From: an uncultured Butyrivibrio sp.
Lineage (GTDB): Bacteria; Bacillota; Clostridia; Lachnospirales; Lachnospiraceae
DNA: 54,310 nt
Assembly: GCA_946623755.1 (NCBI GenBank)
Contig: CAMORK010000010.1
Coordinates: 1-54,310 of the forward strand
Direction: 5' to 3'
In this document: piece after piece, positions 19,971-54,310 of the stretch
How positions within the stretch are numbered: position 1 is the first letter of the stretch
Layout of the letters: each line of letters starts with the position of its first letter
The notes under the pieces: generated by a model
Database searches by the model: none
Seen by the model: the letters and a program-made list of their open reading frames with translations, nothing else
What the model was told of the DNA's origin: nothing
Translations under genes and position numbers: made by a program

Positions 19971-20019
19971 GGAACAGTTCCTGTTCTCTTGACAGATGTG
20001 TTATTATATCAAAGTAAAT

Positions 20020-20325
20020 AAAGCGGATGGTGTCTGCAGGCTATTTAGCCGTGCAGGTGAAAAGGGAAGCAGGTGCAAGTCCTGCGCGATCTCGTCACCG
20101 TGATTCGAGAGCTTTTCTTATATACCACTGGAGAAGTCCGGGAAGGTTAGAAATGCGGAGCTTATAAGCTGTATCGATAAGTCGGGAGACCTGCCAGTCG
20201 CTGTACGTAGGGCAAAGCCCTAAGTCACGAGGAATTGACTGTACGAAGAAACTATGGCAGGATTTATCTTGCTTTGTTTTGTTGTGCATTTTGAGATCCC
20301 TTACGTGACTGTAAGGGATTTTTTA
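20020..20325 (+). ncRNA. Cobalamin (B12) riboswitch with terminator platform
   Basis: The aptamer carries the family's conserved blocks in order: GAAAAGGGAA (about 20056-20065), GGTGCAAGTCCTGC, a CACCGTGA segment, CCACTGG (about 20128), CGGGAAGG and the B12 box AGTCGGGAGACCTGCC (about 20180-20195). Downstream is a hairpin TAGGGC-aaa-GCCCTA (20208-20222), then the terminator ATCCCTTAC/GTAAGGGAT (20296-20319) with a T-run. It should lower transcription of the whole cobalamin operon when adenosylcobalamin or a related corrinoid binds. A TTGACA at 19989-19994 may be the -35 box, but no good -10 was found. Confidence 0.93.
20296..20325 (+). terminator. Riboswitch-controlled terminator
   Basis: A 9-bp stem ATCCCTTAC/GTAAGGGAT with 6-nt loop GTGACT, then T6. 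It lies 31 nt before the cbiK start. The loop side CGTGACT (20304-20310) is perfectly complementary to AGTCACG (20223-20229), a possible competing or tertiary pairing. Confidence 0.85.
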
Positions 20326-52440: not shown

Positions 52441-52454
52441 ATGAGTAAAGTAGA

Positions 52455-52495
52455 AAAGACCTGATATCTTGCTTGCAAGATTATCAGGTCTTTTT
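52455..52495 (+). terminator. Rho-independent terminator of the CAP gene
   Basis: An 18-bp stem with one bulged T: AAAGACCTGATA + TCTTGC pair with GCAAGA + TATCAGGTCTTT (52455-52493), followed by TTAG within a T5 run. Confidence 0.9.
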
Positions 52496-52581
52496 AGACT
52501 GTAGACAAAGTATATTGTGATATCTTTACTTTATGGGGTATCATTGAAATCTATTAACAGCATTGAATTTCACGGACCATC

Positions 52582-52869
52582 ATCGGCCTGAGACTCTCAA
52601 AATCTTATTTAGTCCGACTTTTTTGTAAAAAAATGGTTTTTCACATTGATCAGATACATAATTATCGGACTAACTTTACACTAAATAATCACACGTCCGA
52701 TAAGAAAGCTGTTTTTATTACGTTTTTATTAATATTTTATTCAAAGAATCGGACTAAGCGACAACTATAATTATCATAGTCCGATTTTCCATTATTCGTC
52801 ATTGCAAATTTTCCGAAATTGATAAAAAAACATCGGATTAAACACTTTAATTATCACATCCAGTCCGAT
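52582..52869. repeat. Array of 38-bp interrupted palindromes with 84-bp period
   Basis: Three units of exactly 38 bp lie at 52664-52701, 52748-52785 and 52832-52869. The start-to-start distance is 84 bp both times, so the spacers are 46 bp. Each unit begins ATCGGAC or ATCGGAT followed by TAA and ends GTCCGAT. Units 1 and 2 pair perfectly over at least 7 and 9 bp; unit 3 has one G-T wobble. A box like ACTNTAATTATCA lies inside each, though shifted by 4 bp in unit 3. A degenerate fourth copy (ATCGG...AGTCCGAC, 52582-52618) precedes them at 82-83 bp. The spacers are AT-rich and unrelated to one another. No gene is seen in 52496-53039. Confidence 0.75.
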
Positions 52870-52970
52870 AATAGGTAAAAGCAAGTCTGGGTTAATCCTT
52901 TAGTCTGGCAAGATAAAGAAGGGAAACCATAAGGTATGTATATTGATCAATCACTTTGTCTACACTCTTA

Positions 52971-52998
52971 CTCACGGACAGTGATCCGTGAGCTTTTT
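52971..52998 (+). terminator. Plus-strand terminator after the palindrome array
   Basis: A perfect 8-bp stem CTCACGGA/TCCGTGAG (52971-52978 with 52985-52992) with loop CAGTGA, followed by C and T5. No coding gene ends before it, so it may end an untranslated transcript that includes the array. Confidence 0.65.
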
Positions 52999-53039: not shown

Positions 53040-53213
53040 TTACTTATCATCTCTGTAATGGGCGATGTTTCCCTCTCTGAATTTATCCCTTCTTCTATGC
53101 TTTCTTATAAGACCATCTTCAAACTGAATGGTGATGTCATTACATCCAAAATCTTCTATTACAGTTGCTTTCGTCAGACCAGAGATTTGCCCATGAGTTA
53201 GTATGTTCCTCAT
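53040..53213 (-). CDS. Small chimeric ORF: remnant of a 'QFEDG' repeat-family protein
   Basis: A 57-aa reading frame from the ATG at 53213 to the TAA at 53040. Its last 43 residues (KATVIEDFGCNDITIQFEDG, then LIRKHRRRDKFREGNIAH) match a short repeat domain that I recall as frequent in Lachnospiraceae proteins (usually '..GMKATVI...DI.VQFEDG...H..R..F..G.IA'). The first 15 codons fall within sequence resembling a group II intron, so this is more likely the 3' end of a larger gene cut by the intron or a deletion than a native small gene. Confidence 0.4.
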   Translation of the reverse strand: MRNILTHGQISGLTKATVIEDFGCNDITIQFEDGLIRKHRRRDKFREGNIAHYRDDK

Positions 53214-53331
53214 ATCCAGCTTCCTTCAGATTCCGCCTCACGACGGACACCCTTGCTTTCGGCTATATCCTTCCCACTACCGGGCGGATTCGGGACTTTA
53301 ACCCGTTAGAAACGTGCGCCGCTAGGCGCAC
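53165..53331 (-). mobile_element. Group II intron fragment (5' end), probably class C
   Basis: Read on the minus strand, it starts at 53331 with GTGCGCC, a typical group II 5' end. It continues with GGGTTAAAGTCCCG, then AAGCAAGGGTGTCCG, GTGAGGCGGAATCTGAAGG, AAGCTGGA and GGTCTGACGAA. These blocks occur in this order in domain I of bacterial group II introns (from memory). The 5' end lies 5 nt after the stem of the hicAB terminator, the usual target of class C introns. No reverse transcriptase, domain V or 3' end was found, so it is truncated; the end near 53165 is approximate. Confidence 0.62.
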
Positions 53332-53372
53332 TTAAAAAATCAGATGAAGTCCACTTGGATTTCATCTGATTT
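53332..53372 (-). terminator. Rho-independent terminator of the hicAB genes
   Basis: A 16-bp stem (53337-53352 with 53357-53372, one G-T wobble) with loop ACTT/AAGT. On the minus strand it is followed by a T-run (TTTTTT AAG counting the stem end) just before the intron start. Confidence 0.85.
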
Positions 53373-53399: not shown

Positions 53400-53798
53400 T
53401 CACAAAAGATGTAATTGTATCTTTAGCGCCTCCTGCAATGTCTGAGAAAAATTAATACCTGCAGCTATTGCAGCGTCATTAAGCCATGCTGGAATCGATA
53501 ATGTTTTCTTTACCGCTGTATTATTCATAGTATGTCTGTATTTTATTGTGTCGGCACTAATCAGAGTAGAAAACTCTCCCTTTTTAAGCTTTAAATCATT
53601 AATATGTGTTGGATTTGGAATTGCAACCTTGTCATCCTCCATATCTACCAGCATTAAAGAAAGAGCATCATTAGCCATATACAGCCCTTCATCCAAATCT
53701 TTTCCTGATGTAAAACATCCTTCAATGTCAGGAAACCTGATTGAAAATCCTCCATCCTTTTCCGATGTAAATATCGCAGGAAAAATATATTTTGCCAT
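53400..53798 (-). CDS. hicB: HicB-type antitoxin
   Basis: A 132-aa protein. The N-terminal HicB partial RNase-H-like fold reads YIFPAIFTSEKDGGFSIRFPDIEGCFTSGKDLDEGLYMANDALSLML. The C-terminal part (KKTLSIPAWLNDAAIAAGINFSQTLQEALKIQL) is a ribbon-helix-helix type DNA-binding segment. AAGGAGG overlaps the hicA stop just upstream. It normally neutralises HicA and represses the operon. Since hicA here lacks its 5' end, hicB is probably an orphan and has probably lost its native promoter. Confidence 0.9.
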   Translation of the reverse strand: MAKYIFPAIFTSEKDGGFSIRFPDIEGCFTSGKDLDEGLYMANDALSLMLVDMEDDKVAIPNPTHINDLKLKKGEFSTLISADTIKYRHTMNNTAVKKTLSIPAWLNDAAIAAGINFSQTLQEALKIQLHLL

Positions 53799-53808
53799 AT
53801 TGTCCTCC

Positions 53809-53947
53809 TTACTTAAGACCAGCAGCCTTATATATACTGTTGGCAGTTCCTGTTTTTACTTCCTGACTTGGATGCCTTGGTATTGTAAATTTGCATCCGG
53901 TGACTGGATTAATCCATATTTCATGATTGCTGCCTTCTGCCACTTTA
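53809..53947 (-). pseudogene. hicA: hicA toxin remnant, 5' end lost to an IS element
   Basis: The last 45 residues of a HicA mRNA interferase remain: KVAEGSNHEIWINPVTGCKF then TIPRHPSQEVKTGTANSIYKAAGLK, including the His of the SNHEIW segment that corresponds to the catalytic His region. HicA proteins are about 60-65 residues long, so roughly the first 17 are missing. The open frame continues upstream to 54030, but that part is read from the IS200/IS605 end and does not resemble HicA. It could make a hybrid protein; toxicity is doubtful. Confidence 0.75.
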
Positions 53948-54110
53948 TGAACCACCCTCACCGACTCCACGTCGGAAAGGGTTTCTGTTATGCCGCGAAA
54001 CGGCATGAACCCGCACGATGCTCTATGCATCCTGCAGAACAGGGCATGTCCACTATGCCTCTATCCCATTGGCTTACCTTTGGGAATACTTTCCTCAAGA
54101 TATTTGCAGC
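53948..54110 (-). ncRNA. Probable omega (right-end) RNA of TnpB
   Basis: In IS200/IS605 elements the TnpB guide RNA spans the 3' end of tnpB and the right end, with its guide supplied by flanking DNA (established knowledge). Here the 3' part of tnpB plus the downstream hairpins fit that design and stop at GGTTCA. The 5' limit is a guess. The guide would start TAAAGTGGCAGAAGG, which is hicA sequence. Confidence 0.42.
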
Positions 54111-54310
54111 TCCATTTATGTCTGCATTTGTTATTGTACCATCGTAGTGCCTGTAAAGTCCTCTCTGTATCCGTTTTCCTGAAAAAGAGTAGCTTTCCGG
54201 GCTATTCCTTTTATACACAGGGATATAGTCTTTTGCAAGAAAGTCTGCCTTTGACGTGTAGCTTTCTTCCGTGAGAACAAACTTTATACCATATTCAGCA
54301 AGTTTGTATC
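53988..54310 (-). CDS. tnpB: TnpB (RNA-guided nuclease/IS605 OrfB), C-terminal part
   Basis: This is partial: the frame is open from the window edge (first full codon at 54308) to TAA at 53988, 106 residues. It shows YGIKFVLTEESYTSKADFLA, FSGKRIQRGLYR and NADINGAANILRKVFP. The last is the RuvC-III block with the catalytic Asp, and EES carries the RuvC-II Glu. No CxxC zinc-ribbon pairs lie between them, as in the TnpB subgroup with 'EESYTSKA'. About 30 residues follow RuvC-III and include several Cys. Confidence 0.82.
   Translation of the reverse strand, partial: YKLAEYGIKFVLTEESYTSKADFLAKDYIPVYKRNSPESYSFSGKRIQRGLYRHYDGTITNADINGAANILRKVFPKVSQWDRGIVDMPCSAGCIEHRAGSCRFAA

Follow-up and report, generated by a model that had tools for sequence, protein, structure and literature searches.

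The window analysed here is the whole stretch of 54,310 nucleotides of contig CAMORK010000010.1, from an uncultured Butyrivibrio sp. Towards its right end, the gene of a CAP-domain protein is followed by a terminator-like hairpin (52454..52494, +), after which begins a MITE-like element of 473 bp (52496..52968, +). The element opens with a 16-bp terminal inverted repeat, AGACTGTAGACAAAGT (52496..52511, +), identical to the end of an IS1182-family insertion sequence (IS), and closes with a second 16-bp repeat (52953..52968), which reads AGAGTGTAGACAAAGT on the - strand; another terminator-like hairpin stands at its right end (52971..52992, +). No ORF of 60 aa or more lies inside the 473 bp, which hold an array of interrupted palindromes (52582..52869). 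Farther to the right lies the 5' part of a group II intron (53073-53321, -; RF02001 match at 53073-53247, 37.9 bits), which by eye begins GTGCG at about 53321, right after a hairpin at 53337-53372, much as group IIC introns insert at terminators. Then follow, at 53400-54308 (-), a HicB-like ORF, a HicA-like ORF and a TnpB C-terminal remnant overlapping the latter. A cobalamin riboswitch (RF00174, 100 bits) occupies positions 20011-20212 (+) of the window.

A scan of the window with the pattern ATCGGAYTAA-N(15-25)-GTCCGAT returned three matches, namely units 1, 2 and 3 (52664-52701, 52748-52785 and 52832-52869, all +; the left arm of unit 3 is ATCGGAT), each of 38 bp and with start-to-start distances of 84 bp, against 0.00 expected from 100 dinucleotide shuffles. 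The array itself is confirmed as real, and the three 38-bp units at an exact 84-bp period stand as the sequence-only reading had described them, as does its remark that the 46-bp spacers share no sequence: none is obvious by eye, and a repeat search of the window found no direct repeat joining any two of them. Unit 0 (52582-52618, +) measures 37 bp, its arms ATCGGCC and GTCCGAC lying 30 bp apart, and starts 82 bp before unit 1, the consecutive arm distances of the array being 30, 52, 31, 53, 31, 53 and 31 bp. In three further copies (C6a, C44 and C6b, see below) the same unit has 38 bp, arms 31 bp apart and a first step of 84, so that the window copy has small deletions. The degenerate fourth unit noticed earlier is therefore a unit indeed, yet, being full-length in these relatives, it does not require that the array was once longer. 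A coding repeat of 28 codons was ruled out by stops and a 1-bp drift.

The window array belongs to a family of interspersed non-coding repeats, a fact that the sequence-only reading had missed together with the IS1182-family ends. The genome to which it belongs (2.30 Mb, 106 contigs, 60% complete), where it is copy C10, contains at least seven further copies or part copies: C8 (98% identity), C41 (95%), C6:5829 (hereafter C6a, 82%), C44 (78%), C6:55489 (C6b, 69%), C12:24578, found with C6b as query and 70% identical to it, and C4 (94%). C72 holds only the left end of the MITE; it and C4, which has the right end, are both cut by contig ends and may be halves of one copy. Isolated palindromes at C7, C12:35089, C14 and C24 were put down to chance, since they lie inside ORFs. 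The genus searches scored the best 8 candidates per genome (in one search the best 38, with strict filters), so that weak copies may be missed; they revealed copies of this kind (type 1) in at least two others, G013 and G053, of 79 genus genomes. G013 has one copy beside clpX and one between metK and dnaE, while G053 has a single unit at C128 and a copy beside clpX that is split between units 1 and 2 by an ISL3-family IS (L014, L015), the matches flanking the IS overlapping by 8 bp. The copies at clpX share their neighbours across three species, and those between metK and dnaE across two (own genome and G013). The consensus search in relatives proposed earlier thus yielded orthologues with conserved neighbours, and the fear that no homologous array exists elsewhere is dispelled by the copies in the own genome, G013 and G053. 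Family searches bear out the names clpX, metK, dnaE and groEL, the last of these lying beside C41; the orientation of the arrays relative to flanking genes is mixed.

Type-1 copies hold 1, 3 or 4 units, and one 84-bp unit has been lost exactly from the clpX array of G013. To the right of unit 3, several copies agree as far as a closing AATAGGTAAAAGC (52870..52882, +), which is kept also in copies that diverge beyond it, and the left ends are ragged. The candidates scored from 397 family genomes include no convincing further copy, the two weak matches outside the genus (E ~4e-4) being judged chance; so were five weak matches of the genus search with C6b (G015, G023, G046, G051 and G069; E 3e-4 to 0.009), two of which were looked at. 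Plasmid and phage records gave no match. The sole match of a first viral contig scan was read and, by eye, taken for a lone unit that arose by chance in a contig of no relation; another such scan matched 40 stretches, a number of the order expected by chance on a rough estimate. A scan of genome contigs, from which records near the window's genome may be absent, matched 34 stretches, which by eye are tandem repeats or GC-rich chance matches, no homologue being recognised in the matches and their 60-base flanks. A precise empty site of C6b in G013 was sought and dropped, the region being rearranged and offering no exact boundary.

A one-unit pattern allowing 34-42 bp matched an intergenic unit in contig C16 of G013, and reading around it showed five units. 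A two-unit pattern (38-bp units, step 54-84) found matches in 4 of 394 relatives (G000, G013, G052 and G053), its reversed control in 1 of 394 (G557), which is none of these four. G000, G013 and G052 share this five-unit array, here called type 2 (L210 5067-6987, L211 and L212, three species), with common flanks, steps of 74, 54, 73 and 74 bp and no indels. Its arms lie 31 bp apart in four units and 32 in the fifth, and beyond them no similarity to type 1 was recognised. Downstream of it stands a nuclease-like gene, similar in its C-terminal part to PADLOC PDC-S68 (E 4.5e-25) and weakly to a PD-DEXK model (1e-4); Pfam has no match for it, and a DEDDh-like gene follows.

For the geometry, 56 units from 16 whole or partial array copies were scored, each orthologue and close paralogue counting separately and only offsets of 29-33 bp being admitted. 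Of these units, 47 have their arms offset by 31 bp, 6 by 32 and 3 by 30. Every step is 84 in C6a, C44 and C6b; the exceptions are 85 in the metK-locus copies (once in C12, twice in its G013 orthologue) and, in recent copies, 82 (once in C10 and C8) and 83 (twice in C41). Since the second array keeps the unit with steps of 74, 54, 73 and 74, the conserved quantity is the 38-bp unit and not the 84-bp period. The module is a 38-bp directional site, approximately RTCGGMY-N24-GTCCGMY; an array holds 1 to 5 of them, their steps being close to 5, 7 or 8 turns of the helix. The steps 84, 74, 54, 73 and 74 align to multiples of 10.5 bp (P ~0.0008 against random steps of 45-95 if independent, an optimistic value because the steps 74, 73 and 74 may not be independent). 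The helical phasing claimed from the window is thus borne out in two arrays, whose steps fall near whole turns. The strict geometry claimed with it, and the spacing check meant to probe it, come out divided: unit length is nearly fixed, but the period varies between arrays (74, 54, 73, 74) and between copies (82, 83, 85), though near whole turns.

The arms are much more conserved than the interiors and spacers. The columns of alignment A5 served to separate arms from the rest, and the tests are raw column counts in which the arms are richer in G+C than the AT-rich remainder. Among the window copy, C6a, C44 and C6b, variable columns amount to 7/56 in the arms versus 129/239 in the rest (p=6e-9). 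Between the metK-dnaE orthologues of the own genome and G013 the arms differ at 2/56 and the rest at 44/239 (p=0.004), and this 18% non-arm difference is close to that of metK four-fold sites (35/192 differing, 157/192 identical). In type 2 the arms vary at 4 of 70 columns versus 33 of 243 in the rest, a trend only (p=0.09); pooled with the metK-locus orthologues, the figures are 6/126 versus 77/482 (p=0.0007). The arms accordingly appear protected by selection, a point in favour of the sequence-only reading, the contrast holding among paralogues as well as metK-locus orthologues. Left and right arms tolerate different changes (position 6 of the left arm is A in 35 units and C in 21, the position opposite it in the right arm is T in 55 of 56), as expected of sequence recognition rather than pairing alone.

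The window array is enclosed by AGACTGTAGACAAAGT ... ACTTTGTCTACACTCT, the former being exact at the left end and present with one mismatch at the right. Such ends occur in 25 of the 79 genus genomes. Six end pairs lie ~1.63 kb apart; the five that were read (all but that of G005) each flank a 488-codon open frame, and the two frames scanned belong to the IS1182 family (NF033551, 460 and 461 bits). In the own genome, C68 carries an IS end and the start of an IS1182-family transposase at a contig end. By eye, four of the five full-length IS copies read (L097, L098, L100 and L101) have the hairpin that precedes them repeated on their far side, and hairpins directly adjoin the MITE ends in the window copy, C8, C4 and C72. 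Both terminal repeats are present in the window copy only, which slightly lowers confidence in the reading preferred below; C8 has the left one. Older copies have no clear terminal repeats, hence either the array existed before it was captured or their ends have been lost to decay; a supposed remnant of the left repeat in C44 was not supported. It is well supported by these comparisons that the window copy has probably become the cargo of a MITE with 16-bp ends matching an IS1182-family element, and on account of this match such an element could mobilise it in trans and insert it at terminator hairpins. The hairpins left and right of the window MITE differ, so that no target duplication is visible there. 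The same 22-bp hairpin, CTCACGGACAGTGATCCGTGAG, abuts the left MITE flank of C8 and the right one of the window copy, hinting at recombination between copies.

My preferred, if tentative, reading, to which I would grant not quite an even chance, is that the array is a BOX/BrickBuilt-like mobile repeat carrying helically phased bipartite candidate protein-binding sites. Each unit would offer two inverted half-sites, on the same face of the helix, to a sequence-specific DNA-binding protein, and where several units combine, a multi-site nucleoprotein complex might form, be it a mobile operator or an anchoring site; the unit arrays would then be binding sites rather than a coding or CRISPR array. 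Of the options listed by the sequence-only reading, operator or wrapping site leads and an RNA role comes behind it: since the arms show little compensation and the second array has no significant fold, the units are preferably read as sites of DNA binding.

The RNA alternative, somewhat unlikely, holds that the + strand of type 1 is transcribed and folds through a helix between spacers 0 and 1 plus arm-arm pairs, as a small RNA or UTR module of the sort suggested for BOX elements. Counting a 3-bp extension, that helix, helix B (52629..52638 with 52707..52716, both +), comprises 13 pairs, and over 7 sequences 88 of the 91 cells are paired; the mismatches are two in C6b and one in the metK copy of G013. 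It moves between G-C, G-U and A-U states with a ratio of G.U to A.C of 21 to 0 on the + strand, and is the only + strand helix to pass the scan. It has 9 extra pair types, versus 3 in the best - strand helix; a best helix with as many or more arose in 1 of 1500 shuffles of single columns and in 4 of 1500 shuffles of 3-column blocks. Three models of the whole structure outdid 3'-letter shuffles by most measures, though not by all, and the window copy folds with z of -2.8 (+) and -3.3 (-). Yet only about five independent lineages stand behind the covariation, compensatory changes in the arms are few, several mismatches occur within units, and neither strand of the second array (one sequence tested) folds better than its shuffles (z -1.5 and -0.1). 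Within the element no Rfam match reaches gathering score, seven sub-threshold ones all falling far below, and the mixed orientation to neighbouring genes counts against this alternative too. The covariation of helix B keeps a possible RNA role open for type 1.

It is less probable, indeed unlikely, that the family is a purely selfish MITE- or BOX-like repeat whose arms serve its own mobility only and whose copies do nothing for the cell. Its confinement to few genomes of one genus, the recent near-identical copies, the IS1182-type ends with hairpin targeting, the changes in unit number (1, 3 or 4 in type 1) and the copy interrupted by an ISL3-family IS would all suit such an element. Relics of it, however, should decay evenly, and between in-place metK-locus orthologues the arms differ less than the rest. 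The clpX array tells the same way: own genome and G013 differ at 3/206 sites (units 0-2, ungapped count), all in unit interiors and none in an arm, and own genome and G053 at 2/122, versus 30/178 four-fold clpX sites (148/178 identical), although a local recombination tract could explain this conservation, because the neighbouring 100-bp windows are conserved at 95-97% too. A decayed integron- or CRISPR-like cassette array with free interiors, which the regular units and the exact loss of one unit in G013 might recall, is highly improbable, for the interiors are common to copies and orthologues rather than hypervariable, and no integrase or cas gene was noticed among the ORFs beside the copies, not all of them family-searched. 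In place of the near-identical direct repeats and unique spacers of a CRISPR, the conserved parts are 7-bp inverted arms, and interiors and spacers are shared; the earlier statement that the array is unlike CRISPR is upheld.

The family shares traits with several known systems. BrickBuilt of Porphyromonas gingivalis is likewise MITE-like, intergenic, multi-copy and species-limited, and traps an internal repeat of varying number (PMC4596501); its 23-nt repeats, however, run head to tail without spacers, unlike the 38-bp interrupted palindromes set 16-46 bp apart, with constrained arms, described here. BOX of Streptococcus pneumoniae is likewise interspersed and built of internal modules that vary in number; it can fold and belongs mostly to one lineage (PMC3049150), but its boxB modules are tandem, whereas the present units are spaced and the second array has no fold signal. 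The likeness to BOX is one of design only. The transposase family and the insertion at terminator hairpins recall IS1272/TnSha1 of the IS1182 family (PMC4923244). TnSha1 is reported there to delete part of the hairpin without duplication, target duplication being absent also for IS1272; here, by contrast, four of five full-length IS copies have by eye a complete hairpin on both sides. REP/BIME elements too are palindromic units in regular arrays, and REPs are reported as protein-binding sites (PMC2817692), but their orientation alternates within BIMEs and a genome usually has more than 100 of them, while all units of an array here share one polarity and copies are few. Literature searches found, among the papers covered, none on miniature inverted-repeat or interspersed repeats of Butyrivibrio, and nothing on such an element among the matches listed for Lachnospiraceae, MITE and IS1182.

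Interspersed bacterial repeats are often treated as junk or hairpins. Here, spacers drift while arms of fixed geometry stay constrained, and the two can be separated in orthologous copies; whether a bacterial MITE carries functional protein-binding sites becomes directly testable, and the array would offer a case of a hairpin-seeking IS family spreading such cargo. Carrying the protein-binding reading further, one may speculate, doubtful as this extension is, that a transposon-carried phased array seeds multi-site protein complexes at gene ends across the genome, thereby building a lineage-specific regulon or a chromosome-anchoring map, and that the second array would be a native target of the same putative protein.

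Other repeats occur in the vicinity of two copies. Beside the metK-locus array (L122, ~1390-1495) there are three tandem copies of a repeat of ~36 bp, with a related repeat beside the G013 orthologue (L134), and next to the C41 copy (L003, ~700-840) lies a repeated palindrome around TTGCGCAGCAA.
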